A DNA stretch of 64,000 nucleotides from Methanolinea sp. (GTDB taxonomy: Archaea; Halobacteriota; Methanomicrobia; Methanomicrobiales; Methanospirillaceae), in assembly GCA_025453675.1 (NCBI GenBank), contig JALOPW010000017.1, positions 1 to 64,000 of the forward strand, given 5' to 3'. The position numbers and the translations under genes were made by a program. The first letter of the stretch is position 1. The number at the start of each line of letters is the position of its first letter. Shown piece after piece: positions 32,412-46,662 of the stretch. The notes below the pieces were generated by a model, which was not told the DNA's origin, did not search any database, and worked only from the letters and a program-made list of their open reading frames with translations.

Positions 32412-32939
32412 ATGATACCTTTCGTTCTCACGTTCCTCCTGGCACTTTTCATCTATCTCCTGCTCACCGCTGGCAGCGGAGGCCTGGGGTTCTGGTCCCC
32501 CTCCGAGCTGGTGGCAGGGGTGGCGCTCTCCCTCCTCACCGCCGCGGTCGCCAGGAACCTCCTGTGCCGGTCCCGCGACCTCCGTATGGCCAACCCCATC
32601 CGGCTCCTTCTCATCCCGGTGTATATCCTGGGGCCTTTTCTCCTGGAGGTGACCAAGGCCAACCTGGACGTGGCATACCGGGTGATCACCGGAAAAATCC
32701 GCCCGGGTATCATCAGGGTGCAGTCAGGCTTAAAGACCGATCTCGGTATCTTCATGCTTGCGAACTCCATCACCCTGACCCCCGGCACCATCACGGTAGA
32801 TATCGACGAGAAGAGCCATGATCTCTATATCCACAACATCAATGTCCCCCGGGGATGGGAGAGCAGGCCACAGGTACAGGATAAGGAGCTCTTCTCCATG
32901 GCGAACCTGCCCGCATGGATACGGAGGATTGCAGAATGA
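32412..32939 (+). CDS. mbhA: Mbh hydrogenase subunit A (MnhE-like)
   Basis: 175 residues, two or three N-terminal helices (FVLTFLLALFIYLLLTAG) and a soluble end with the MnhE signature LANSITLTPGTITVDI. It is the first of 14 overlapping genes whose order matches Pyrococcus mbhA-N. As MnhE homologue it belongs to the Mrp antiporter-like half of the complex, which moves Na+ or H+ across the membrane. A strong Shine-Dalgarno precedes the ATG. Confidence 0.9.
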   Translation: MIPFVLTFLLALFIYLLLTAGSGGLGFWSPSELVAGVALSLLTAAVARNLLCRSRDLRMANPIRLLLIPVYILGPFLLEVTKANLDVAYRVITGKIRPGIIRVQSGLKTDLGIFMLANSITLTPGTITVDIDEKSHDLYIHNINVPRGWESRPQVQDKELFSMANLPAWIRRIAE

Positions 32940-33193
32940 TCGAGCCGTGGTATCCCGCGGTGCTCATCCTGGTCATCCTGGTTTGCCTGGCCCTGGTCCG
33001 GTTGTTCCTTGGACCCACTGCTGCTGACCGGGCGGTCGCGCTGGACACGGTCAGCACGCTCTCGGTGGCGGCGCTCATCCTCCTCGGGGTGGCCTACCAG
33101 CAGATTATCTTCATCGATGTGGCTATTGTGTATGCCCTGCTCTCTTTCGTGAGCACGCTCTATATTGCCAAATACCTGGGAGGTGAACTGTGA
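32936..33193 (+). CDS. mbhB: Mbh hydrogenase subunit B (MnhF-like)
   Basis: 85 residues from ATG 32936, overlapping mbhA by 4 bases. Three helices with the MnhF loop FLGPTAADRAVALDTV. It is an antiporter-module subunit. Confidence 0.9.
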   Translation: MIEPWYPAVLILVILVCLALVRLFLGPTAADRAVALDTVSTLSVAALILLGVAYQQIIFIDVAIVYALLSFVSTLYIAKYLGGEL

Positions 33194-33546
33194 TCGCCGA
33201 TATCCTGGTCCTGGCATGCCTGTCAGTCGGGTTATTCTTCAATACCCTGGGGATCGTGGGGCTGCTGCGGTTCCCTGACGTGTATACCAGGATGCATGCC
33301 ACCACGAAGATGACCACCTTCGGCTCTGTATTCACCGCACTCTCGGTGATCATCTACGGGGCTGCCCAGTTCCTGGGAACCGGGGATGGCCAGTACATCA
33401 CCCTCTCTCTCCACACGCTTATCGCCGCGATAGCCCTGGCGTTCACGAATGCAGTGGGGTCCCACGCCATCGCCCGTGGTGCACACAAAGCAGGAATCAA
33501 GCCCGTCCCCGCGGTCGTCGACCGGCTCGAGGAGTACACACCATGA
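33190..33546 (+). CDS. mbhC: Mbh hydrogenase subunit C (MnhG-like)
   Basis: 118 residues, three helices. The MnhG signature GLLRFPDVYTRMHATTK is complete. It overlaps both neighbours by 4 bases. It is part of the Mrp-like module. Confidence 0.92.
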   Translation: MIADILVLACLSVGLFFNTLGIVGLLRFPDVYTRMHATTKMTTFGSVFTALSVIIYGAAQFLGTGDGQYITLSLHTLIAAIALAFTNAVGSHAIARGAHKAGIKPVPAVVDRLEEYTP

Positions 33547-33797
33547 TCGACCTGATCATCCATGCCCTGGTAATTGCCGGGCTGATCATCTCTGCCCTGA
33601 TGGTCTTTTTCTTCCGTGACCTCCTGGCAGCCGCACTGGCGGCGGGTTTCTTCAGTTTCCTCATCTCGCTTGAGTTCTATATCCTGCAGGCCCCTGACGT
33701 AGCCATCTCCCAGGCGGCCATCGGAGCCGGGCTCACCACGGCCATCTTCGTCATCGCCATCCGGGCTACCACCCGTTACGAGGAGGGGAACCCATGA
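33543..33797 (+). CDS. mbhD: Mbh hydrogenase subunit D (DUF4040-like)
   Basis: 84 residues, nearly all hydrophobic, with the [20 protein letters not shown] motif of the MrpA C-terminal / DUF4040 segment. It corresponds to Pyrococcus MbhD. Four-base overlaps with mbhC and mbhE. Confidence 0.88.
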
Positions 33798-34078
33798 AAA
33801 AGGCCCTGACCCTTGGTATATTCCTGGTCCTGGCAGCCGGGCTCTGCACCATCCCGGTCTTCCTCACCTTCGGCCAGCCGGCTGCGACAGATATGGACCG
33901 TTATTTCGTGGAGCACGGGCAGTCGCAGGCTGCTGCAAACAACATCGTGACCTCCATCGTGTTTGATTACAGGGGATTCGACACCCTGGGGGAATCGGTG
34001 GTCCTTTTCACCGCCGTCATCGGGGTGGGCCTGTTGTTCCGGTCCATGAAAGGGGGTGAAGAGCATGAGGATGAGTAA
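33794..34078 (+). CDS. mbhE: Mbh hydrogenase subunit E
   Basis: 94 residues with two helices. The motif [20 protein letters not shown] matches the MrpA/MbhE segment. It overlaps mbhD by 4 bases and mbhF by about 14. Confidence 0.87.
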
Positions 34079-34532
34079 GATAGTGCGGACAGGTGCCAAC
34101 CTGCTCTATCCATTCATCATCATCTTCGGCCTCTATGTGATCATGCACGGCCACCTCACCCCCGGGGGCGGGTTCCAGGGGGGTGCGGTGGTGGCAACCG
34201 CGGCCGCCCTGGTAATTGTTGCCTACTCCTACCAGGAGGTAACGGGCATCATCCGGAACGTGGCGATGAAAGCAAGGGAATCCGTGGGACTGCTGCTCTT
34301 TATTGGGGCAGGGATCGCAGCCCTGGCGGTGGGAACCCCGTTCTTTTACAATTTCCTGGCAAACAGCGGCCTCCTTTTCGGGATGCCAGTTCCATTCGGC
34401 CCGAATCCCGGTGATCTGAATACTGCAGGGGTCATCCCCATCATGAACGTGGCGGTCGGGATCGAGGTATGGGGAGGCCTCGCCATCATCCTCCTCTACA
34501 TGCTTTCCAGTGTCGCAAAGGAGGGATCCTGA
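34065..34532 (+). CDS. mbhF: Mbh hydrogenase subunit F (MnhB-like)
   Basis: 155 residues from ATG 34065, chosen because GGGGGTGA lies at good spacing. Four helices with the MnhB signature [17 protein letters not shown]. It is an antiporter-module subunit. Confidence 0.9.
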
Positions 34533-34534
34533 CC

Positions 34535-34879
34535 ATGTTCTGGAACCTGCCCTACGTTGCGGTGGTGGTATTGACCATCATCGCACTCGCCACTATCGTC
34601 CTCAAGAAGAACCTGATCAAGGTCTTCCTCGGGATTATCATCCTCGAGTCGGCGGTGAACCTCTTCCTGATCTCGCTTGGATACCGCGAGGGTGGGATCG
34701 CCCCCATTTACACGAACGCGCCTGCGGCAGCAATGGTCCTCCCCACTCCACAGGCCCTGACCCTCACCTCCATCGTGATAGGGGTGGCCACGAGCGCCCT
34801 TCTCCTCTCGTTTGCCATCATCATCTGGAAGAAGTACGGGAGTATTAACCTCGACAGGATCCGGAGGCTGAAGGAATGA
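34535..34879 (+). CDS. mbhG: Mbh hydrogenase subunit G (MnhC/NuoK-like)
   Basis: 114 residues from ATG 34535; the track's start at 34469 is inside mbhF. Three helices in MnhC/NuoK style, with the conserved Glu in FLGIIILESAVNLFLI. Two bases separate it from mbhF, and it overlaps mbhH by 4. Confidence 0.9.
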   Translation: MFWNLPYVAVVVLTIIALATIVLKKNLIKVFLGIIILESAVNLFLISLGYREGGIAPIYTNAPAAAMVLPTPQALTLTSIVIGVATSALLLSFAIIIWKKYGSINLDRIRRLKE

Positions 34880-36450
34880 TCCCGGCATTCATAGTCGAGA
34901 ACTCCCCTGCCCTGATGGTCATCGTGCCACTCGTTGCAGCCTTCATCACCCCGTTCATCGGCCGTATCTCCCACGCACTGCGCTCGCTGTGGGTGGGAGG
35001 GGCGATGGCTGTCACCTCGGCCATAACCCTTATCCTGGCACTTGATGTCTATGCCACGGGGACCAGGCTCTATGTCTTCGGGGCCTCCGCCGCCTCAATG
35101 GCTCTCCCGCCCGATTCGGGCGGCATCCCCATCCGGATCATATTCGCTGTCGACCCCATGAGTGCCCTGATGCTGGTGATCACCGCGATCTCGGGATTTG
35201 CCATCATCCTCTACTCCCTGGCGAGCGAGCGGTCGTATTCGGGGCTCGAGAGTTACTACACCCTCTATCTCCTGATGATTACCGGGATCCTCGGGATGGT
35301 CTCTACCGGCGACGTCTTTAACTTCTTCGTATTCCTTGAGATCCTCTCCCTGGCCTCTGCCGGCCTGATCGCCTACCGCATCGACGGCGGGGTGGCAGTG
35401 GAGGCGGCCCTCAAGTACTTCGTGCTGAGCACGATCGGTGCGCTCGCGATCCTGGTCGCCATCGGGATCTACTACGGTGAATACAACGCCCTGAACATGG
35501 CCATGATCGCGGCGAGGATGCAGTTCTCCCTGCTCGACCAGGTGGCACTGGTGCTGATCATCGCCGCCCTCGCCATGAAGTGCGGGGCTGTACCCATGCA
35601 CTTCTGGACTCCGGATGCCTACTCAATGGCCCCCTCCTCCATCACCGCCCTCCTGGTGGTGGCGAGTCAGGCCAGCCTTTATGGACTGTTCAGGACCGTC
35701 TTTACTCTTTACAACCTTTCCCTGAACGCGGTGACAGTGGGATGGCTGATTATCATCCTCGGAGTCCTCTCCATGGTGGTGGGGGTAACGATGGCCATCC
35801 CCCAGAAGAACGTGAAACGGCTGATGGCCTACCACGCCGTCTCCCAGACAGGGTACATGCTCCTTGGGGTGGGGGTCGGGCTGGCCGTGCTCGGGAACCA
35901 GTCCCTCCTGGATGCCTTCGGGTACATGGCCATGGAGGGAGGCCTCTTCCACATCATCAACCATGCAATGTACAAGGGGCTGTTATTCCTTACCGCAGGG
36001 GCTATATTCCTCCGGATCGGGACCTATAACCTGAACAGGATGGGAGGCCTCGGCCACTCCATGAAGTGGACCATGGTCTTCTTCGTCATCGGGGCCCTTG
36101 CCATTGCCGGGATACCACCCTTCAACGGGTTCGCATCGAAACTGATGATCTACGAGTCCGTGTTCATCTTCAACCCGGTGCTGGCGGTAATCGCGATGGT
36201 GGTGAGCATCCTCACCCTGGCGTCCTTCGTGAAGGTTTTCCATTCCATATTCATGGGACCGAGACTCCCCGAGTATGCAGAGGTGAAAGAAGCCCCCCTA
36301 CCCATGCTCTTCGGGATGGGCATCCTGGCCGTTGTGGTGATACTCTTCGGCCTCTTCCCCACCATTGTGGTGGAGAGCCTTATCACTCCCGCAGCCCACG
36401 CCCTGGTGAACCAGGGTGCTTATATTAGCGCGATCCTGGGAGGTGCCTGA
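34876..36450 (+). CDS. mbhH: Mbh hydrogenase subunit H (MnhD/NuoL-N-like)
   Basis: 524 residues, about 14 helices. It is the large proton/sodium-translocating channel subunit. Key charged residues of this family are seen in FFVFLEILSLASAGLIAY (Glu in helix 5), LAMKCGAVPMHFWTPDAYS (Lys and His) and IPQKNVKRLMAYHAVSQTGY (Lys). Length matches MbhH. It overlaps mbhG by 4 bases. Confidence 0.95.
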   Translation: MIPAFIVENSPALMVIVPLVAAFITPFIGRISHALRSLWVGGAMAVTSAITLILALDVYATGTRLYVFGASAASMALPPDSGGIPIRIIFAVDPMSALMLVITAISGFAIILYSLASERSYSGLESYYTLYLLMITGILGMVSTGDVFNFFVFLEILSLASAGLIAYRIDGGVAVEAALKYFVLSTIGALAILVAIGIYYGEYNALNMAMIAARMQFSLLDQVALVLIIAALAMKCGAVPMHFWTPDAYSMAPSSITALLVVASQASLYGLFRTVFTLYNLSLNAVTVGWLIIILGVLSMVVGVTMAIPQKNVKRLMAYHAVSQTGYMLLGVGVGLAVLGNQSLLDAFGYMAMEGGLFHIINHAMYKGLLFLTAGAIFLRIGTYNLNRMGGLGHSMKWTMVFFVIGALAIAGIPPFNGFASKLMIYESVFIFNPVLAVIAMVVSILTLASFVKVFHSIFMGPRLPEYAEVKEAPLPMLFGMGILAVVVILFGLFPTIVVESLITPAAHALVNQGAYISAILGGA

Positions 36451-36454
36451 GTCC

Positions 36455-36802
36455 ATGGAACTGACTTCCACTCTCCTTACGGGGACCGGTTCCTGGAATC
36501 CCCTGGCCTGGATCCTTGGCCTGGTGGTGGCTGCTGTCATCGCCTGGCTCATCTACTCCCTGGGGGAGAAGGGGTATAAAGCCGGCACCGCACAGGCAGA
36601 ACCCTTTATATCTGGGAACCCCGAGCCCGAAAAGGGCCTGGTCCATGTCCGGGCCGGGAACCTCTACTGGGGCTACCTGGAAGCCCTCAAAGGGTATTAC
36701 AACCGCCTGGTGCCCCTGCATACCGGGGACCTCCATGACTATATCCTCTGGTACCTGGGGGTAACCGCTCTCTTCCTGGTCCTGGTGGTGATCTCCGCAT
36801 GA
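36455..36802 (+). CDS. mbhI: Mbh hydrogenase subunit I
   Basis: 115 residues from ATG 36455. One N-terminal helix (LAWILGLVVAAVIAWLIYSL) and one C-terminal helix (YILWYLGVTALFLVLVVI) flank a soluble middle. By position it is MbhI, which links the antiporter and hydrogenase halves. Family conservation is low, so the call rests mainly on synteny. Confidence 0.82.
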   Translation: MELTSTLLTGTGSWNPLAWILGLVVAAVIAWLIYSLGEKGYKAGTAQAEPFISGNPEPEKGLVHVRAGNLYWGYLEALKGYYNRLVPLHTGDLHDYILWYLGVTALFLVLVVISA

Positions 36803-37233
36803 AACTGAATGCCTCATTCAATCGCTCCCTCTGGGTCTACCACTTCAACTCCGGGTCCTGCAACGGTTGCGAGATTGAGATAGTGGCCGCTATAACCCCG
36901 CGTTACGACCCCGAACGGTTCGGGATCAAGCTGGTGGGAAGCCCCCGGCATGCCGACGTGATGCTGGTCACTGGGCCGGTGGTCCACAAAATGAAGGACA
37001 GGCTTCTCCGGGTGTATGCACAGATGGCGGACCCGAAACTCGTGATGTGTATTGGTACCTGCGGGATCTCAGGGGGAGTTTTTTATGACTCCTACAACCT
37101 GGAAGGCCCGGTTGACGAGGTCATCCCGGTTGATGTCTATATCCCGGGATGCCCGCCCCGGCCAGAGGCGATCATCCACGGGGTTGTGAAAGCGCTGCAG
37201 AAACTTGAGCGAATCCAGGGAGGAGAACAATGA
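36799..37233 (+). CDS. mbhJ: Mbh hydrogenase small subunit (NuoB-like)
   Basis: 144 residues. It holds the proximal [4Fe-4S] cluster. The ligands are CNGCE, the Cys in IGTCGISGG, and IPGCPPRP. The 4-base overlaps with mbhI and mbhK keep the operon continuous. Confidence 0.95.
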   Translation: MKLNASFNRSLWVYHFNSGSCNGCEIEIVAAITPRYDPERFGIKLVGSPRHADVMLVTGPVVHKMKDRLLRVYAQMADPKLVMCIGTCGISGGVFYDSYNLEGPVDEVIPVDVYIPGCPPRPEAIIHGVVKALQKLERIQGGEQ

Positions 37234-37877
37234 CCGAAGGAATACTGACCCCCGGGCAGGTGGTGGAGCATTTCACCGGCAGGTTCGGCACTGGGATCCA
37301 CCATACACGGATAGACGAAAGGCGGGAGGGGAAGAAGAAGATTCCCAATTACAATATCTGGATCGACCTGGAGAAGGACCTCCTGAAACCGGCCATCGGG
37401 GCCCTGATGGAATTGCACTTCCCCCACCTCGCGGTGATCTCGGGCAGTGATATGGGAGAATCCCTCCGTCTCCTCTATCACTTCTCTATCTATTACGGGA
37501 GGGTGAAGGGGGAGTATACGGTGACATTCGCCGTGATGCTGCCGAAGGCCGATCTTTCCATTCCCACCATCTCGGACCTGATACCGGGCGCGGTCTTCTC
37601 CGAGCGGGAGAAGCAGGAGTTCCTGGGAGTAAAGGTCATCGGTATCCCTGATGACCGCCGCCTCTTCCTCCCCGAGGACTTTCCCGATGGGATATATCCC
37701 TGGAGGAAGGACGGGACGGGGATTCCGGATTCCATGGTCAAGGATCTGTGGGCCTCGAAGAGACCGGTGGACCGCCCCGCACCCCCGCTTCCGGAAGTGC
37801 CGGCATGCAGACCTGACGAAGGGGAGAAATCGGGAGCACCGGCTGGCACAGAGACCGGGAAGGAGGGATCATCATGA
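37230..37877 (+). CDS. mbhK: Mbh hydrogenase subunit K (NuoC-like)
   Basis: 215 residues. The NuoC/30-kDa core is visible in YGRVKGEYTVTFAVMLPK and the end LGVKVIGIPDDRRLFLPEDF. The charged tail of about 50 residues rich in Pro and Glu is extra. It assembles with MbhL. Overlaps the next gene by 4 bases. Confidence 0.92.
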   Translation: MTEGILTPGQVVEHFTGRFGTGIHHTRIDERREGKKKIPNYNIWIDLEKDLLKPAIGALMELHFPHLAVISGSDMGESLRLLYHFSIYYGRVKGEYTVTFAVMLPKADLSIPTISDLIPGAVFSEREKQEFLGVKVIGIPDDRRLFLPEDFPDGIYPWRKDGTGIPDSMVKDLWASKRPVDRPAPPLPEVPACRPDEGEKSGAPAGTETGKEGSS

Positions 37878-39103
37878 GCGATGAGTCGAAGAAGGCACCC
37901 TACATAGTGCCTATCGGGCCCAACCACCCGGCGCTGAAGGAGCCGGTGATGTTCACCTTCGAGATGGAGGGAGAGATGGTCAGGGACGTAGACTTTGCCC
38001 CGGGCCAGACCCACCGGGGGATAGAATGGATGGGCATGCGCCGGAACCCGGTCCAGATCGTCCACCTCACAGACCGAATCTGCGGCATCTGCGGGGTCTC
38101 CCACACCCTCGCATTTGCCAGGGCCGTCGAGCAGGTAACCGGGATCGAGGTGCCTGAGCGGGCCGATTATATCCGTGCCATCATCGCCGAGTTCGAGCGC
38201 ATCCAGTCCCACCTCCTGTGGGCAGGTGTTGCCGCCCACGAGCTCGGCTTTGACTCCCTCCTTCACCTCACCTGGAGGGTGCGTGAGCAGTCCATGGACG
38301 TGATCGAGAACCTGACCGGCAACCGGGTCAACTACGGGATCGTGCAGGTCGGGGGTGTGCGCCGGGATATCGTCCCTGAACAGCACCGGATCATCGAAGA
38401 ATGCCTCTCCACCTACGAAGGACTGCTCGGGAAACTGCTGAACCTCTTTCTGGACGACAAGACCATCACCATGAGGTGCCGGGACTGCGGGGTACTCTCG
38501 AGGAAGGAGGCACTTGATCTCTGCACGGTGGGGCCCACCGCAAGGGCCTCTGGAGTGAACGTGGATCTTCGGCAGGACTATCCCTATGCCGCATACGGAG
38601 ACCTGGAGGTGAAGGCCATCCTACCCGACCAGCACCTGGGAGAGACCCACGGTGATGTTTATGACCGCATCGTGGTCCGGTTGCTCGAGGTGGGCCAGTC
38701 CTGCCAGATCATCCGGCAGTGCCTCTCAGAGATGCCTGCAGGACCCTTTACCGCGGAGGAGAAACTTGCGAAACTTCTGGCCATCTGCAAAAAGGCAACA
38801 GGGGAAGCCATCGGGAGAGTAGAGGCACCACGGGGAGAGTGCTTCCACTATGTCCGCATGGATGGGAAGGAGGCCCCCAGTACCTGGAAGGTGAAGGCCT
38901 CCTCCTACAGCAACCTTATGTCCTGGATTCCCATGCTCAGGGGGGAGCAGATCGCCGATATCCCCATCATCGTGGCCTCCATCGATCCCTGCCTCTCCTG
39001 CACCGACCGGGTGGCAGTGGTCCGGGACGGATCATCGCGTATCCTCACGAAGGAGAACCTGCACCGCCTCTCTGTGGAGAAAACCAGGAGGCTCCAGTCA
39101 TGA
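37874..39103 (+). CDS. mbhL: Mbh hydrogenase catalytic large subunit
   Basis: 409 residues. It binds the [NiFe] centre. Both Cys pairs are intact: RICGICGVSHTLAF near residue 60 and DPCLSCTDR near residue 378. That marks a true hydrogenase rather than the Cys-less Mbs/Mbx relatives. About 30 residues follow the second motif and could be removed by the nearby maturation protease. NuoD-like core otherwise. The reaction is H2 evolution or uptake with ferredoxin. Confidence 0.96.
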   Translation: MSDESKKAPYIVPIGPNHPALKEPVMFTFEMEGEMVRDVDFAPGQTHRGIEWMGMRRNPVQIVHLTDRICGICGVSHTLAFARAVEQVTGIEVPERADYIRAIIAEFERIQSHLLWAGVAAHELGFDSLLHLTWRVREQSMDVIENLTGNRVNYGIVQVGGVRRDIVPEQHRIIEECLSTYEGLLGKLLNLFLDDKTITMRCRDCGVLSRKEALDLCTVGPTARASGVNVDLRQDYPYAAYGDLEVKAILPDQHLGETHGDVYDRIVVRLLEVGQSCQIIRQCLSEMPAGPFTAEEKLAKLLAICKKATGEAIGRVEAPRGECFHYVRMDGKEAPSTWKVKASSYSNLMSWIPMLRGEQIADIPIIVASIDPCLSCTDRVAVVRDGSSRILTKENLHRLSVEKTRRLQS

Positions 39104-40119
39104 CCCTGCTCGGAATCGCCACCATGGGGATGTGGTGCATCCTCCTCTCCCTCTTTGCACTGGCGGGAGGGCTCTTCCTCCTCGGTGTTGACCGGAAACT
39201 CGCCGCCCACATGCAGGCCAGGATTGGGCCTCCAATCCGCCAGCCGTTCATCGACGTGGCAAAACTCCTGCAAAAGGAGAACATCGTTCCTGCGAACGCC
39301 ATCCCCTGCCTCTTTCACCTGGCCCCGGTGATCGCGCTGGTATCGAGCATCGTGGTCCTCTTCTACCTCCCGGTGGGAAGCATCCTCCCGGTGCTCGGGG
39401 TCTACGGCGACCTGGTGCTGGTGATGTATCTCCTTGCTGTGCCGGCACTGGCCATGGTCGCAGGAGGTTTCGCATCAGGGTCACCGTATGCCACAGTGGG
39501 GGCCCAGAGGGAGATGGTGACCATGATCGCATACGAGTTCCCGCTGGCGATCGTGGTGATCGGGGTAGCCTGGCGCCTTGGGGCGGCCGGCCTCCCCTTG
39601 CCCTTTACTCTCGGGACCATCGCAGCAAACCCCATCTGGACCCTGGTGGGACCGGTCGGGTTCATCGGGGCACTCCTTCTCCTCCTGGTACTTGCGGTCG
39701 TCACCCCCGCAGAGCTCTCCCGCATACCCTTCGACACCCAGGAGGCAGAGACCGAGCTTGCCGGCGGGCTGCTGGTGGAGTATTCGGGGAGGAACCTCGC
39801 CATGTTCTACCTCGCACAGGGGGTAAAGACCCTGGTCTTTGCCGCCGTAATCATCGCAATCTTCTTTCCCTGGAACCTCTCCGGGCTCCTGGCCATGCCC
39901 CCCTGGCTTGCATGGCCCGCAGACCTCCTCTTCTTCCTGGTAAAATCCATCCTTGTCCTGTTCTTCGCGGTGACACTGGTCCGGGTGGGGATGGCCCGCT
40001 TCCGGATAAACCAGGTGGTCTCCCTCTACTGGGTCTACCTCTCGGTGATCGGGTTCCTGGGATTGATTCTTCTGATGGCCGATGCATCGCTCGTCACGCT
40101 CGGGGTGGTGGGAGCATGA
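39100..40119 (+). CDS. mbhM: Mbh hydrogenase membrane subunit M (NuoH-like)
   Basis: 339 residues from ATG 39100; the track's 38719 start is a shadow of mbhL. About eight helices with NuoH motifs: MQARIGPPIRQPFIDVAKLL, and a Glu-rich loop IPFDTQEAETELAGG. It anchors the peripheral arm and starts the ion path. Four-base overlaps on both sides. Confidence 0.95.
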   Translation: MTLLGIATMGMWCILLSLFALAGGLFLLGVDRKLAAHMQARIGPPIRQPFIDVAKLLQKENIVPANAIPCLFHLAPVIALVSSIVVLFYLPVGSILPVLGVYGDLVLVMYLLAVPALAMVAGGFASGSPYATVGAQREMVTMIAYEFPLAIVVIGVAWRLGAAGLPLPFTLGTIAANPIWTLVGPVGFIGALLLLLVLAVVTPAELSRIPFDTQEAETELAGGLLVEYSGRNLAMFYLAQGVKTLVFAAVIIAIFFPWNLSGLLAMPPWLAWPADLLFFLVKSILVLFFAVTLVRVGMARFRINQVVSLYWVYLSVIGFLGLILLMADASLVTLGVVGA

Positions 40120-40520
40120 AATTCCTCCCCCTGTTCCCCGAACTTATCCGCCAGCTCTTCCGCGAGCCTGCGACCAACCGGTTCCCGGCCAAGTACCTCC
40201 CCCCCTCGGTGACAGGGTTCTTAAAGGACGTGGGGGCGGGAAAGGCTACACTCATCCCACCGGTGCCGACCCCGCCACGGTTCAGGGGCAAGATTACCTA
40301 CAAGAGCGACTGCTGCATCGGGTGCGGGCTGTGCGTGAAGGTCTGCCCCTCCCATGCCATCGAGCTCATCCCTGATACCAAGCAGATACGGGTCTGGGTC
40401 GGCCAGTGCATCTTCTGCTCACAGTGCACCAGCATCTGCCCCAAGGGTGGCCTCTCCATGACGGACGAATTCCTCCTGGCCGACGAAGACCGGTACTCCG
40501 AGAACCTGATCGTGGAATGA
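40116..40520 (+). CDS. mbhN: Mbh hydrogenase ferredoxin subunit N (NuoI-like)
   Basis: 134 residues from ATG 40116. Two [4Fe-4S] clusters: CIGCGLCVKVCPSH and CIFCSQCTSICPKG. It takes electrons from ferredoxin to MbhJ. Last gene of the operon, followed by a hairpin and a T run. Confidence 0.94.
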   Translation: MKFLPLFPELIRQLFREPATNRFPAKYLPPSVTGFLKDVGAGKATLIPPVPTPPRFRGKITYKSDCCIGCGLCVKVCPSHAIELIPDTKQIRVWVGQCIFCSQCTSICPKGGLSMTDEFLLADEDRYSENLIVE

Positions 40521-40539
40521 AGAGTTCTTCCATTTTTTT
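40519..40539 (+). terminator. Terminator after mbhN
   Basis: The short palindrome GAAGA-GT-TCTTC is followed by CA and seven T residues just after the mbhN stop. Oligo-T alone is enough for archaeal termination. Confidence 0.6.
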
Positions 40540-41052
40540 CTGTGATGGTTCAGCCCTGACCTGCGGACGGGAGACATATCTTGATTGGGTCATTGAACCG
40601 CTGCCGTGAAACTGCGGGATCCAGCCCATGCATAATTCCACCCATCATCCCCCTTTATCAGCGGATTCTTTTTATTCCGTGTCAGGGCTTGGTACCCCGG
40701 GGTGTTTCCTCTCCTTGGTGAGATTTCCTCGAGCATTCCCTCACTCCAGACAATTGACCGCACTTCCGACACTGATATTCCGTCTCATGGCTCTGCCCTG
40801 CCATTGTGGCGCCACCCCACTACAAGAGACCCCGCACTGAAAAGCAGGTCGGGGGGCCGTGAGCCCCCTTGACGAAGATGGAGGGGATTCATCCCGGAAA
40901 GTGCGTATCGAGCGGTATTCCAAAAGAGGGAGGGAAATTTTTGTCCCTCCGGGATGAGGTACACCAAGATCTCAAATGACCGGATCGCAGACCCAGGTTG
41001 TGAGGGGCTGCACCCGTGATTGCAGCGGGAATGTGTGAATGATGAAAGATCT
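40521..41052. other. 532-bp intergenic gap with GC-rich hairpins
   Basis: It lies between convergent mbhN and the protease gene. It holds hairpins GGGGGC-cgtga-GCCCCC (40852-40868) and GGAGGGA-aatttttg-TCCCTCC (40929-40950). It could encode a small RNA. Short ORFs have no protein features. Confidence 0.4.
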
Positions 41053-41502
41053 CTATTCCCCACCCATCTCCGGAATCCGTTGCACCTCGCCTTTCTCCAG
41101 CAGTGCAACCAGCCGATCTGCACCTTCCCTCACCGCAGGACTCAAACCTTCTCCCATCTCCACCACTTCGGGCTGGATCCCGATGAGCAGGATCTCCCCC
41201 GCTGCATCCGCGAGGAAGTCGATGAAAATGTCCAGGGGCAACTGGTGTGTCCCAAGGCCTGCATCCCGGATCTTCTCCTTTGGGATAAGGGAGAACTCCC
41301 CGGGAGCCATCCCCATATCGGCAGCATCCACCATGATGAGGATATCAGGGTGCTCCTCCCTCACCAGGCCCGAGAAGTTTTCGGGAGCGGTTCCACAGTC
41401 GACCACCCTCCAACCTGACACACGAAACCGTGAGACCACGTAATTACCCGCCCCGTCGTCCCTTCGAAGGGAGTTACCGATGCCGAGGAGGAGGTTTGTC
41501 AT
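41053..41502 (-). CDS. [NiFe]-hydrogenase maturation protease (HycI-like)
   Basis: 149 residues. HyaD/HycI-type endopeptidases cut the C-terminal tail of the large subunit after nickel insertion. Family motifs are LLLGIGNSLRRDDGAGNYVV (with the metal-binding Asp), VDAADMGMAPGE (second ligand) and GTHQLPLD (His). Located convergent with mbhA-N, so MbhL is its most likely substrate. Another hydrogenase elsewhere could be the target. Confidence 0.92.
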   Translation of the reverse strand: MTNLLLGIGNSLRRDDGAGNYVVSRFRVSGWRVVDCGTAPENFSGLVREEHPDILIMVDAADMGMAPGEFSLIPKEKIRDAGLGTHQLPLDIFIDFLADAAGEILLIGIQPEVVEMGEGLSPAVREGADRLVALLEKGEVQRIPEMGGE

Positions 41503-41586: not shown

Positions 41587-42255
41587 TCATACCTCCCGGT
41601 CTCCTCGCTCCTGTACACCAGGCAGCTCTTTCTCTTGCCCTGTTATTTGCCTCCTGATCTCCTGGTGACGCTCCCTCATGGCATTCTGTGCGGCCTCCAT
41701 GCGTCCGATGGCCGACAGGAGATCCTGTTTCCTGGGGTCCTCCTCGCCGGTGGTGCGATAGACGTTCCAGAGCAGCAGCAGGAGCCTCTGGTGCACCTCG
41801 ATGTCACGGGAGAGTCGCCGGTACTCATCCAGAAGTGCGTCATCCACTCCGGACTGCCTGGCCTTCTCCACCTCGTCACCTATCTCTGTCTCCTTTTTGA
41901 AATATTGGCGGATGACTTTACAGAGGTCCCTCCGTGTGATTGGCTTCTGTATGTAGTCTTCAAAGAGCGCACTGTGTACCTGGACCTCCGCAGGGTCGAG
42001 GCTCTTTGCGGTGATCATCATCACCGGTATATCGGCAGTCCCCGCATCCCCCTTGATCCGCCCAAGCGTCTCCCACCCGTCCATAGGTTCCATCAGGATG
42101 TCCAGCAGGATAAGGTCAGGGTGCTCTCGCTCAAGCAATGCTATGGCCTCCTCCCCCGAGTGCGCTTCCATTGCAATCAATCCCTCGTGCCTGATCATCC
42201 TGGCCAGGATATCGGTGATTGCAGGATTGTCATCCACAATCAGGATGCGGTACAT
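41587..42255 (-). CDS. Receiver-domain protein with helical tail
   Basis: 222 residues. Residues 1-120 form a receiver domain: acidic pocket VDDN, phospho-acceptor Asp in LILLDILMEPMDG, Thr/Ser in MMITAKS, Lys in YIQKPITRRDL. Residues 130-222 form a coiled helical tail (DEYRRLSRDIEVHQRLLLLLW) with no DNA-binding motif. It probably works by protein contact. Its start codon overlaps the preceding roadblock gene's stop. Confidence 0.9.
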   Translation of the reverse strand: MYRILIVDDNPAITDILARMIRHEGLIAMEAHSGEEAIALLEREHPDLILLDILMEPMDGWETLGRIKGDAGTADIPVMMITAKSLDPAEVQVHSALFEDYIQKPITRRDLCKVIRQYFKKETEIGDEVEKARQSGVDDALLDEYRRLSRDIEVHQRLLLLLWNVYRTTGEEDPRKQDLLSAIGRMEAAQNAMRERHQEIRRQITGQEKELPGVQERGDREV

Positions 42256-43115
42256 CAGGAATCCCTCTTCCCTGTGTCGGCCGCCGCCGGAATCTCTTTT
42301 AAGATCTTCCTTATCTGGCCCAGATTGACCTCCGGCCCTGTGAGAATGCAGAGATATTCATTGAAATACGGGGCGATGATCACCTTCCCGGCAGGTATCT
42401 GGAGGGTCAGTTGGACGAATGAACCGGTGTGCATGACCAGACTGATAGCCTTTGCCGCCTGGAGCATATCGTCTGCCAGGACTACCAGCAAATCAAGATT
42501 CACGTTTCCGATAGAGAGGACCGAGGTGCCCCTCCCGAAGATGGAGACTGCCTGTACTCCCGGGAGACGGAGCAGACGCCCCAGGAGCAGATGAGCGAGG
42601 TTCTCGGTATCCAGGCCGCTCGGGAGGATAACCCCCTTCTCCGCCACCGGCTGTGCGGGCTTTTGAATGGCGGGTTCCTTGACGGTGATTGAGGTATCGA
42701 CAGCCATATCTGCCGCAGGTGCATCCGCAGGTTCTCCTTCTGTCTCTCCATTCTGTTCTGCCAGGACACGCCCGGGCCTTCCTTCGGAGAGGGCATCCAC
42801 CTCCGGATATCCAGCACCAGAGACCTTCACCAGATGGATGGCCTCCTCCATCTCTTCGCTCGTATACCTGTGAATGACCAGGTTCACCACCAGAACGCTG
42901 GTCAGGTGCAGGTATGCTGATTTTCCTCTGAGCACTGCGTCCTCCTGCTGAAAATAGCAGCCCACAGGGCGGCCTTTCTGGACCACCACATACCCTTCTC
43001 CCCCTCCCACCCGTACCCTGATCAGCCCCTGGAACCGGGCCGCGTGGGAGAGCATCCACTTGAAAGGGACCTGCATCTCTCCAATAATCACGCCGTGGGG
43101 CAACGAGTCACTCAT
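42255..43115 (-). CDS. Two-part protein with C-terminal roadblock/LC7-like domain
   Basis: 286 residues. The N-terminal 110 residues (MQVPFKWMLSHAARFQGLIR, YVVVQKGRPVGCYFQ) resemble the DUF2226/PATAN-like sensing domains of archaea. A Glu/Pro/Ala linker follows. The last 110 residues look like a roadblock/LC7 domain (LPGVQAVSIFGRGTSVLSIG, MHTGSFVQLTLQIPAGKVII). Roadblock proteins regulate small GTPases by dimerisation. It overlaps both neighbours by a base or four. No GTPase gene is in the window. Confidence 0.8.
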   Translation of the reverse strand: MSDSLPHGVIIGEMQVPFKWMLSHAARFQGLIRVRVGGGEGYVVVQKGRPVGCYFQQEDAVLRGKSAYLHLTSVLVVNLVIHRYTSEEMEEAIHLVKVSGAGYPEVDALSEGRPGRVLAEQNGETEGEPADAPAADMAVDTSITVKEPAIQKPAQPVAEKGVILPSGLDTENLAHLLLGRLLRLPGVQAVSIFGRGTSVLSIGNVNLDLLVVLADDMLQAAKAISLVMHTGSFVQLTLQIPAGKVIIAPYFNEYLCILTGPEVNLGQIRKILKEIPAAADTGKRDS

Positions 43116-43468
43116 AGCAGGGAACAGATGTGTTCCTGGTTCTTCTTCAGTTCATAGCTGATCTGGCCGATGTTTGCCGAGGGATGCGTTATCAGGAGCA
43201 GAAAATAGTATTTCTTCAAGGGAAACAGGAGAAGGGCCATATCACGGAACTCAACAAAGACCATCGAGATCTGCTCGTGGCCGAGCCTTGTAGCCATGGT
43301 TTTCGATTCTGCCATCACGAACGAGACAACCGCTGCCAGTTGATTCCCGTCGATCGACGCAGCACCTATCTCTTCTGATACCCTGCCCTCCGGATCGATG
43401 ACAAGGGCCATGTTCACTCCCTCAAGGGAGAAGAGCCGTTGGAGTTCCTTCTTCAGCATCCTGTCCAT
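43112..43468 (-). CDS. Roadblock/LC7 domain protein
   Basis: 118 residues, one roadblock/LC7 domain: LEGVNMALVIDPEGRVSEEI, the helix LAAVVSFVMAESKTMATRLG, then MVFVEFRDMALLLFPLKKYY. This is the MglB-like fold that in bacteria acts as a GTPase-activating protein for MglA. It overlaps the next gene's start by 4 bases. It follows the orphan HAMP gene by 38 bases. Confidence 0.87.
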   Translation of the reverse strand: MDRMLKKELQRLFSLEGVNMALVIDPEGRVSEEIGAASIDGNQLAAVVSFVMAESKTMATRLGHEQISMVFVEFRDMALLLFPLKKYYFLLLITHPSANIGQISYELKKNQEHICSLL

Positions 43469-43506
43469 CCCTCCATTTATCTGGCCTCTGCTCCGGCTTT
43501 ATGGCA

Positions 43507-43929
43507 TTAAGGCTCTTCTTTTGCCAGGGTATCCAGAATACGGTAAGTGTTGATCATCCTGTTGAATGCCCTGAAAAGTTCGCCAATCTCGTCGCTCGAG
43601 ATCACTTCCAGCTCCTTATCCGGCAGGTCTCCCCTGCTGATGCGGGATGCAATGGCCGAGAGCTCGACGATGGGCCGGGTGACCTGGCGGGCCAGGTAGT
43701 AACTCCACATCAGCACCACCAGCACTGTGATCAGGGTAAGGAGAAGCACACTGGGGAGGGTGCCGATAATTGACACGATACTCTCTGTACCACCGATGGA
43801 AATGATCCCCAGGAGGATGACGGGGAGTATCGCGACGAAGATCATGTAGATCAGAATTTTATAAAAGATAGGGATCTGGACAGTACTTCGGCGTCGTGTG
43901 CCTTCCCCTCTTCCGGAAGACTCTGCCAT
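43507..43929 (-). CDS. Orphan HAMP-domain membrane protein
   Basis: 140 residues from ATG 43929. The longer TTG start at 43977 is rejected because a TATA box lies right where it would begin. Two helices (ILIYMIFVAILPVILLGIIS, LLLTLITVLVVLMWSYYLA) enclose a very short loop and lead into a HAMP domain (RPIVELSAIASRISRGDLPD, EIGELFRAFNRMINTY). It ends there without kinase or methyl-accepting domain. It heads the roadblock/receiver operon and is presumably its membrane input. Confidence 0.85.
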   Translation of the reverse strand: MAESSGRGEGTRRRSTVQIPIFYKILIYMIFVAILPVILLGIISIGGTESIVSIIGTLPSVLLLTLITVLVVLMWSYYLARQVTRPIVELSAIASRISRGDLPDKELEVISSDEIGELFRAFNRMINTYRILDTLAKEEP

Positions 43930-44136: not shown

Positions 44137-44703
44137 TCAGAACCCGAGCATTGCCAGCAATAAAAGGATTACGATTATCAGGAACGCAACGACGACGACG
44201 ACCATCCCCGGTCTGACATTTACCATCTCGGGAATAGTCTCTGCCGAAAACATCCCGCGGTTGAGGACAGATCGATCGAGGCGAGGGTAAATCCGTGCGA
44301 AGATTCCGGCTCCGAGCGCAATACCAATCATTCCAATCGCCGCATCAAGTGCTCCCGATCCGACCGCACCGGCGGCCGTGCCGGGGCAGTACCCGAGTAT
44401 CGCAAACCCGGCCCCGAAAATTAACCCCCCGATCACTGTCGCGCCGACCGATCCTGCCTTGACATGAAGCCTGACAAGCCCCGCAGCCTTCATGGCATAG
44501 ACCCCGATCATGCCGACGAGGATGGCAGAGAGCATCACTTTTACCACCGTAAAGTCGGTGAGGAGCAGCTGGCCGATGATTACCGCGTACTCGGTGACTC
44601 CGCCTTTCTGGAGGAGGAAGCCAAAGGCAATTCCAGTGAGGAGCCCAAGGACGATCTGGGCCCCCCTGCTCGACCTGAGTTGTTCAAATGCCATTGTGTT
44701 CAT
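44137..44703 (-). CDS. YeeE/YedE-family sulfur transporter half 2
   Basis: 188 residues with about five helices. The conserved Cys motif is LGYCPGTAAGAVG, of the YeeE/YedE (DUF395) family, whose studied members take up thiosulfate. It is the downstream partner of the 44707 gene: together they equal one full-length YeeE. It is co-transcribed with the sulfur cluster. Confidence 0.88.
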   Translation of the reverse strand: MNTMAFEQLRSSRGAQIVLGLLTGIAFGFLLQKGGVTEYAVIIGQLLLTDFTVVKVMLSAILVGMIGVYAMKAAGLVRLHVKAGSVGATVIGGLIFGAGFAILGYCPGTAAGAVGSGALDAAIGMIGIALGAGIFARIYPRLDRSVLNRGMFSAETIPEMVNVRPGMVVVVVAFLIIVILLLLAMLGF

Positions 44704-44706
44704 CCC

Positions 44707-45231
44707 TCATGAAAACGCGAACCCAAACATCATGCCTGCAACCAGTATTCCTCCCGCAAAGAAGCAGATCGCCGCAACCCAGCTGGCAACCGAGAGTTGC
44801 AATGCCCCTGATATGCCATGACCGGACGTGCAGCCACCCGCCCAGCGGGCCCCAATACCCATCAGGATGCCTCCAATAAGCGCCACGGCGATCCGGACGG
44901 CAGGGTCAGGCCCAAACGTATCCGCAAAAAGCGTGGGCACGACCAGTATCGTGAAGGTATTCGAGAGATACGCAGAGAGAAACGCCCCGATTACCACTCC
45001 AATGATGATTATCCACTGCCAGTCAATCGTCGGCGTGAATTTCCGGTAATAAGGCATTTTCGCGGCATTGTGTCTGGATATCGCTGACTCCACCATCCCG
45101 GCAGTCTTTGCATACGCAGTCGATGCACCGAGCGGCCGGTCGGAAAAGAGGAACGTCGTCCAGATGAGGACTCCGATCCCTGCCCCGACAATATAAGGCG
45201 ACCAGGTCGCCATCAGCAACCATTCGAACAT
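44707..45231 (-). CDS. YeeE/YedE-family sulfur transporter half 1
   Basis: 174 residues with four or five helices. Conserved Cys in RWAGGCTSGHGISG. It precedes its other half by only 3 bases. The order MBL-rhodanese, half 1, half 2 is typical of clusters for sulfur uptake and trafficking. Confidence 0.9.
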   Translation of the reverse strand: MFEWLLMATWSPYIVGAGIGVLIWTTFLFSDRPLGASTAYAKTAGMVESAISRHNAAKMPYYRKFTPTIDWQWIIIIGVVIGAFLSAYLSNTFTILVVPTLFADTFGPDPAVRIAVALIGGILMGIGARWAGGCTSGHGISGALQLSVASWVAAICFFAGGILVAGMMFGFAFS

Positions 45232-45282
45232 GCTGGACCCTTGATCTCAATGAAATGTGTTGCCCTCAAATAATCCCTCGCA

Positions 45283-46662
45283 TCAGGGTACAAAGCCTGC
45301 CCGTTGGCACGCGGTGTAGCCGCCGCCGAGATTGGAGACGTTCTGAAAACCATGCATCTTCAGAATGCTTGCCGAGATGCTCGCCCGCTGGCCCCCTTTG
45401 CACATCACGATAGTGTGCACGGCAGGGTCAAGCTCGGTATACCTTATCCTGAGGTCATGCCAGGGGATATGGACCGACCGTTTGGCATGACTCTCCTGCC
45501 ACTCTTCCTTTGACCGGACATCGACCAGGATCGCCCCGCCCCCGCTGATCAGCGCATTCGCTTCCTGAGGGGTGATGACCGGGACACGGCCAATGGGAAG
45601 CCCTGCAGATCCCCAGAGGAGCATTCCTCCCTCGAGGAATCCTGCAACGCGGTCGAATCCGACGCGGCGGAGCTGGAGCGCCGCCTCTTCAGCCTGCCTC
45701 CTCTCCTCGACAACAAGGAGGATATCCCGATTTGGCGGGAGGATCCAGCCTGCCTGTGTGGCAAAGTTCCCGGAGAGATCGATATGCCATGCTCCCGGGA
45801 TATGTACGCCCGAGAATGCCGGATAACTCCTTGAGTCAAGGAGTATGGCATCACTCCCCTGAATCCGGCTGAAGAAGGAGTTCGGATCGAGAGAGGCAGG
45901 TTGCGGAAGGGTTCGCATCAGTGCAGGGCCTGCCCGGTTGATCTCGGAACAGCGGGCGAAGTGGTCAGGGGCTGCAGGCATATCCGAAGTGAGGGCGCTG
46001 ATAAACTCCCTGCAGTTACCGATATTGAGGGCATAGTTATACTTCTTCTCGTACCCGATGGTGCTCGTCCTCTTTGCAGCCATCGCCCGTCCGCAGAGGG
46101 ATCCCATGCCGTGGGCGGGATAGACCTCGCACTCGTCCGGGAGGGTGATGATCTTGGTATGCAGGTTGTCATAGAGGGAGGCTGCGAGCGCTTCCGCTCT
46201 CCCAGGAAAGAGGTCAGGACGGCCGACATCGCCGACAAAGAGGGTGTCGCCTGAGAAGAGGGCGACCGGCGAATCACCGCGGGCGGTATCGGTGGCAATG
46301 TAGCAGATATGCTCGGGGGTATGGCCGGCCGTCTCGATCACACGAAAGCGGATGTCTTCAAGCGTTATCGCGTCCCCTTCGACCAGCCCTTTATGTGGGA
46401 ATGCGCAGTTTCCGGACCTTGGCGCATAAATCTCTGCTCGCGTCACTTCGGCCAGGTCGAGGTGGCCTGATATGAAATCCGCATGCAAATGCGTCTCCAG
46501 GATGTGGGTGATCCGAAGTCCCATATCCCGTGCGGCATCGATATACCGCCCGACATCCCGGGCCGGATCGATGACCGCACAGGTCCTGTTTCCTGCAACG
46601 ATGTAAGAACTGTGAGCAATTCCGGGGACGAAAAACTGGTGGATTCTCATTTTCGCACTCAT
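45283..46662 (-). CDS. MBL-fold persulfide-dioxygenase-like rhodanese fusion
   Basis: 459 residues. Residues 1-210 are a metallo-beta-lactamase domain (THLHADFISGH, then GHTPEHICY, FSGDTLFVGDVGR, YPAHGMGS). Two rhodanese domains follow. The first lacks a catalytic Cys (VVEERRQAEE). The second has CKGGQRAS. Members oxidise or move persulfide sulfur. ATG 46650 (MRIHQFFVPG) is also possible. It starts 4 bases after the SLC13 stop. Confidence 0.92.
   Translation of the reverse strand: MSAKMRIHQFFVPGIAHSSYIVAGNRTCAVIDPARDVGRYIDAARDMGLRITHILETHLHADFISGHLDLAEVTRAEIYAPRSGNCAFPHKGLVEGDAITLEDIRFRVIETAGHTPEHICYIATDTARGDSPVALFSGDTLFVGDVGRPDLFPGRAEALAASLYDNLHTKIITLPDECEVYPAHGMGSLCGRAMAAKRTSTIGYEKKYNYALNIGNCREFISALTSDMPAAPDHFARCSEINRAGPALMRTLPQPASLDPNSFFSRIQGSDAILLDSRSYPAFSGVHIPGAWHIDLSGNFATQAGWILPPNRDILLVVEERRQAEEAALQLRRVGFDRVAGFLEGGMLLWGSAGLPIGRVPVITPQEANALISGGGAILVDVRSKEEWQESHAKRSVHIPWHDLRIRYTELDPAVHTIVMCKGGQRASISASILKMHGFQNVSNLGGGYTACQRAGFVP

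Follow-up and report, generated by a model that had tools for sequence, protein, structure and literature searches.

Small GTPases are the targets of known MglB-type roadblock proteins (PMC4316618). In the MglA-MglB-MglC-RomR system of Myxococcus xanthus, the C-terminal helix of RomR binds the roadblock protein MglC and the MglB-MglC complex (PMC12719032). In the actinobacterial conservon (CvnA-D), CvnA carries a histidine kinase module, and CvnC and the GTPase CvnD are encoded in the same operon (PMC4316618, PMC13343842). The GTPGQ form of the G3 motif characterises MglA Groups 2-5 (Wuichet and Sogaard-Andersen 2014, PMC4316618); Group 4 is the methanogen group, which occurs in 56% of the surveyed methanogen genomes without conserved neighbours, and the same survey counted 328 orphan MglB proteins, none of them characterised. 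Roadblock proteins of arCOG02603 and MinD-family ATPases have been described in archaeal T4P loci (Makarova et al. 2016, PMC4858521). The REC-MetOD2 architecture of response regulators was named, and MetOD2 defined, by Galperin et al. 2018 (PMC5847659).

We analysed a window of 64,000 nucleotides, the whole stretch of DNA under study, from Methanolinea sp. (GCA_025453675.1, contig JALOPW010000017.1, positions 1 to 64,000 of the forward strand). The nearest named loci place the source genome as a Methanolinea-like member of Methanomicrobiales. The window contains a four-gene block encoding, in order, a HAMP protein, two roadblock proteins (RB1 and RB2) and a receiver (Table 1). As in the Myxococcus xanthus system, two roadblock paralogues occur together with a receiver whose C-terminal part is helical, and the cell also has an MglA-family GTPase. 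Unlike in that system, the operon begins with the gene for a HAMP membrane protein, one of the roadblocks has a PATAN-like N-domain and the receiver ends in a MetOD2 tail; the GTPase gene lies unlinked and its product is of the GTPGQ class, as against TVPGQ in Myxococcus xanthus, and the likeness is one at the domain level. With the conservon the block shares a HAMP-containing membrane protein encoded together with an MglB-type roadblock, and the best PDB sequence match of RB1 is CvnB5. Unlike the conservon, the methanogen operon has no HAMP-histidine kinase of the CvnA type, since its HAMP protein ends after HAMP, and neither a CvnC-like gene nor a CvnD-like GTPase is linked to it. A search of the open-access literature found no paper on this module. 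The parts are known; the combination of an outputless HAMP protein, a roadblock pair and a MetOD2 receiver was not found in the open literature searched.

Table 1. Positions of the operon genes in the window and of related genes elsewhere in the genomes
Feature	Position	Strand	Evidence
HAMP membrane protein, 140 aa	43507..43929	-	Pfam HAMP 4.7e-13; 17-row alignment; omega 0.07-0.20; topology from sequence
RB1, Roadblock/LC7 protein, 118 aa	43112..43468	-	Pfam Robl_LC7 5.5e-12; phmmer to CvnB5 (3leq) 0.0046; conserved 4-bp overlap
RB2, 286 aa, beta-rich N-domain + linker + roadblock	42255..43115	-	AlphaFold2 model, Foldseek, hhalign 92.5 (N-domain)
RB2 beta-rich N-domain, ~residues 1-100	42816-43115	-	
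RB2 roadblock, ~residues 170-274	42294-42608	-	AlphaFold2 model, Foldseek
Response regulator, receiver + MetOD2 tail, 222 aa	41587..42255	-	Pfam Response_reg 6e-26, MetOD2 1.5e-15
Stand-alone MglA-type GTPase, single domain, 162 aa	own genome G000:C46:1349-1837		E 7e-86 to A1
RB3 + REC-MetOD2 pair	own genome L113:4799-5793; also L180, L183-L202		adjacent genes
Pilus-type operon opened by RB1'/RB2'	own genome L004:3128-10917		RB1'/RB2' directly before T2SSE/T2SSF genes

A conserved gene block in Methanomicrobiales

Gene calls, Pfam scans and the fold of RB2 confirmed that a HAMP protein, two roadblock proteins and a receiver lie at 41587-43929 on the minus strand, as an earlier note on this DNA had read them. 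The coupling by 1-4 base overlaps that it described was found between RB1 and RB2 (4 bp) and between RB2 and the receiver (1 bp), but not between the HAMP gene and RB1, which are separated by 38 bp here and by 0-297 bp in most orthologues. An NCBIfam scan of the proteins returned generic HAMP and receiver matches only. Pairwise omega was 0.06-0.25 across all four genes, indicating purifying selection.

Among the 232 Methanomicrobiales genomes, 69 encode a module-type HAMP protein; the lineages represented are Methanolinea-, Methanoregula-, Methanoculleus-, Methanofollis- and Methanomicrobiaceae-type. A class-wide search gave the same 232 genomes as the order-wide search, and the distribution beyond the order rests on a scan of genome contigs that yielded 44 loci, titled Methanomicrobiales or unplaced Euryarchaeota. 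The order HAMP-RB1-RB2 was kept in 38 loci from several families, that of the window included, with varying flanks, and, with a single exception, the loci having both RB1 and RB2 show an overlap of exactly 4 bp between them. The conserved order, the 4-bp overlap and the low omega show that the gene block is real and beyond chance.

In the window the module adjoins a membrane-bound hydrogenase cluster (32412-41502) with subunits judged by eye to be Mrp/Mnh-like and with a HycI-type maturation protease; upstream of it (44137-46662) are two sulphur-transport genes and a gene for a metallo-beta-lactamase-rhodanese protein. Membership of the HAMP operon in the hydrogenase locus was rejected because the flanking genes change between genera: g11 has genes for CoA biosynthesis and for a clamp loader there, whereas in family f6 a prepilin peptidase gene is among the neighbours.

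The HAMP protein ends after its HAMP domain

The HAMP protein reads from its sequence as a basic N-terminus, a first transmembrane helix, a loop of ~14 residues, a second transmembrane helix, the HAMP domain (residues 79-127) and a conserved tail. No Pfam domain follows HAMP, and the tail ends in YRILDTLAKEE, with YxILDTLAKEE-type ends in the orthologues. The protein lacks both a sensor and an output domain and stops past the HAMP tail in all 17 aligned orthologues, so that the lack of an output domain first noticed in this one protein holds in every row of the alignment. A truncated or mis-assembled HAMP receptor was rejected, since the end point and conserved tail shared by all aligned orthologues show that it is no fragment.

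Larger membrane proteins of ~280-325 aa that also end in HAMP without an output domain were seen at four other loci (L163:5870-6823, L164:5675-6607, L166:6561-7535 and L177:5333-6172), the first being Cache-HAMP by Pfam. At the latter three, the next gene encodes a helical protein of 77-79 aa, with no Pfam match where scanned. A protein of 75-90 aa is likewise encoded between the HAMP and RB1 genes in family f6 and Methanofollis-type loci (L048:7651-7878, L063:9805-10044, L073:8386-8655) and is related to the small proteins after the larger HAMP proteins (hhalign 98.4); outputless HAMP proteins may have a partner of this kind in common. In another locus (L167:4811-6265), immediately after a membrane protein that ends in HAMP, the small helical domain appears as a fusion with a TPR protein. 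Genes for an anti-sigma-type HATPase and a STAS-like protein were noted near outputless HAMP genes (L041:3002-4205, L177:4466-5305), a possible link to partner switching.

Roadblock proteins and receiver

Both roadblock proteins belong to the Roadblock/LC7 (MglB-type) family, RB1 by Pfam and RB2 by model topology and Foldseek. In RB2, residues 175-258 matched Robl_LC7 with an E-value of 2.8e-4, just below the curated cut-off, and the AlphaFold2 model confirmed the fold, with the canonical roadblock topology (alpha-beta-beta-alpha-beta-beta-beta-alpha). Mean pLDDT was 78.7, with both domains mostly at ~90 and the disordered linker between them below 50. Foldseek matches in the PDB include 7yh1, 3cpt and 6izw; an Asgard roadblock (7yh1) and MP1-p14/Ragulator lead, and MglB is among them. 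The N-domain of RB2 was matched by hhalign (probability 92.5) to PATAN/DUF4388-like proteins elsewhere in these genomes, which are themselves weak to Pfam; its own Pfam matches, DUF4388 (0.19) and DUF2226 (0.031), were both below the cut-offs. In a tree, HAMP-linked RB2 proteins stood apart from unlinked RB2 proteins (support 100). RB1 is missing from Methanoculleus-type loci, which means that the module can do without an RB1/RB2 heterodimer.

The receiver is a REC-MetOD2 response regulator with its phospho-acceptor Asp. Residues D8, D9, D52, T82 and K104 are intact, and the catalytic residues are conserved over 29 sequences. The model (pLDDT 89) has helices at 108-134, 139-168 and 176-209 that make up the MetOD2 tail. 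The helical tail proposed in the earlier note was thus borne out by the model, although it belongs to an architecture that already has a name; like the methanogen regulators described by Galperin et al. 2018 (PMC5847659), the operon receiver is a plain REC-MetOD2 protein. We found no support for MetOD2 as a DNA-binding domain: the model consists of long helices, and the PDB matches listed cover mainly the receiver. The in-operon receiver gene is limited to a few Methanoregulaceae genera (that of the source genome, g2 and g5) and is therefore not part of the core; it is a lineage add-on.

Related roadblock pairs, MinD and pili

In most of 20 other loci examined across the order, a REC-MetOD2 gene comes immediately after the gene for a third roadblock protein (RB3), often beside MinD, PATAN-like and TM protein genes. 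The passages of Galperin et al. 2018 that treat MetOD2 link no roadblock proteins to it, whereas here REC-MetOD2 repeatedly follows a roadblock gene. The operon receivers form a clade separate from other REC-MetOD2 proteins (SH-aLRT 98), showing that the roadblock-receiver pairing occurs in two distinct contexts. RB3-REC-MetOD2 pairs were also found in genera without the GTPase (g4 and g13).

In the source genome, a paralogue pair, RB1'/RB2', opens a pilus-type operon that is divergent from genes for a PATAN-like protein, a TM protein and MinD. This pair, which precedes T2SSE/T2SSF genes, recalls the roadblocks described in T4P loci (Makarova et al. 2016). The HAMP-linked RB2 lies apart from the RB1'/RB2' pair in the tree (100), and within the window the module is not part of a pilus operon. 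In family f6, a type IV prepilin peptidase (A24) gene follows the HAMP module.

GTPases and kinases near the module and in trans

The earlier note proposed a synteny survey and held that its reading would fail if orthologous operons always had a GTPase or histidine kinase gene adjoining them. In the flanks of the 37 other module loci no small GTPase was found (profile E<=1e-6), nor a histidine kinase with a profile built from one seed and of limited sensitivity, and the neighbours there were unrelated housekeeping genes; partners hidden just outside the module were therefore rejected within these sampled flanks, at that kinase sensitivity, and the proposal survives the survey. The sole kinase match across all 38 module loci was the CHASE4-HAMP kinase of the window, ~15 kb from the module, and a large REC protein at one locus (L045) had no kinase domain by Pfam. 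Conversely, no GTPase was matched in the 38 module loci and no roadblock around 18 GTPase loci; the coupled MglA-MglB arrangement, with the GTPase within four genes of an MglB homologue, does not occur in them.

The source genome encodes a stand-alone MglA-type GTPase elsewhere (Table 1), whose GTPGQ motif in G3 is invariant in seven relatives. Tree placement aside, it has the traits of MglA Group 4, namely a single domain, GTPGQ in G3 and a methanogenic Euryarchaeota host. The genome also has 29 HATPase matches, and kinases are thus available for the receiver. The absence of both partners, as first described, accordingly holds for the neighbourhood but not for the genome. Stand-alone GTPGQ-type GTPases were located at L095:1349-1837, L096, L097, L104 and L110, several of them near an EF-2 or cyclophilin-like gene.

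The GTPase is present in 127 of the 232 genomes of the order; of the 69 that have a HAMP module, 63 encode it (Fisher 2e-14, shared ancestry ignored). It was present in 121/150 genomes with an RB2-family protein versus 6/82 without (3e-29, shared ancestry again ignored). Counted by genus (39 tabulated), 20 had both, 10 RB2 only, none the GTPase only and 9 neither (p 4e-4, ancestry ignored). These statistics take no account of phylogeny, and absences in incomplete genomes add noise to them. The co-occurrence was equally strong in genomes with only other RB2 paralogues, so the association does not single out the HAMP module. Three g2 genomes (96-98% complete) keep the module with no full-length MglA-type GTPase, a relaxed search giving partial matches in longer frames only, and thus leave room for a route free of the GTPase; three less complete module genomes also lacked it. 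The likely small-GTPase partner of the module is encoded in trans, and the module is in turn a good candidate for the partner that this uncharacterised GTPase lacks.

Discussion

We tentatively favour a membrane-anchored roadblock complex that would regulate an MglA-type GTPase in trans, be tuned by REC-MetOD2 and act in the end on pili or a related surface machine. The sensorless and outputless HAMP protein would be a membrane anchor and conformational switch, whose HAMP helices and conserved tail would recruit RB1 and RB2 through physical interaction. RB1 and RB2 would form roadblock dimers, which in loci with both proteins would probably be heterodimers; the PATAN-like N-domain and linker of RB2 may offer an extra docking surface. 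REC-MetOD2 would be phosphorylated, by phosphotransfer from a histidine kinase encoded elsewhere, and would dock via its helical tail to tune the complex, as RomR does on MglB/MglC. The target, possibly through a GAP or GEF activity of the roadblocks, would most likely be the stand-alone MglA-type GTPase. A pilus-type surface machine is the likely final output, a link that comes from genome context.

Less probably, HAMP dimers would pass their signal straight to roadblock dimers, with or without the receiver, whose targets are not GTPases, for example a MinD-like ATPase or a pilus ATPase. Such a route would agree with the lack of a GTPase near any module locus, with the g2 genomes that keep HAMP-RB1-RB2-REC without a full-length MglA-type GTPase, with RB3-REC-MetOD2 pairs in the GTPase-less genera g4 and g13 and beside MinD in several others, and with the position of RB1'/RB2' before a T2SSE ATPase gene; it is opposed by the presence of the GTPase in nearly all module genomes and by the action of known MglB-type roadblocks on small GTPases (PMC4316618). 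Were the HAMP switch to work on roadblock dimers directly, even without an MglA-type GTPase, the module would represent an archaeal roadblock-based transmitter class, mirrored by Cache-HAMP proteins that are outputless too and have a small helical protein encoded after them; we see this as conceivable rather than probable. We doubt still more that a separate kinase or chemoreceptor with its own HAMP domain, encoded in trans, is the partner of the HAMP protein, while the roadblocks only scaffold the receiver at the membrane. The receiver is intact and phosphorylatable by its residues, and the genome has its 29 HATPase matches, with the CHASE4-HAMP kinase ~15 kb off; however, the core module has no receiver in most lineages, making receiver scaffolding unlikely as its ancestral job, and the one-seed profile detected no linked kinase in other loci. 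That an outputless receptor remnant merely drifted next to unrelated roadblock genes with no joint function is hardly credible. The gap at the first junction and the loss of RB1 or the receiver in some lineages would suit such drift, but the conserved order across families despite changing flanks, the conserved C-terminus and the omega values strongly disfavour it.

The RB1/RB2 pairs, together with RB3 and its REC-MetOD2, provide concrete, order-wide candidate partners for the methanogen Group 4-type GTPase. The repeated link between roadblock proteins and MetOD2 receivers is a first hint at a role for MetOD2, and a HAMP protein without a transmitter is directly testable. The g2 genomes, which retain the module without the GTPase, constitute a natural experiment separating the GTPase and GTPase-free readings.
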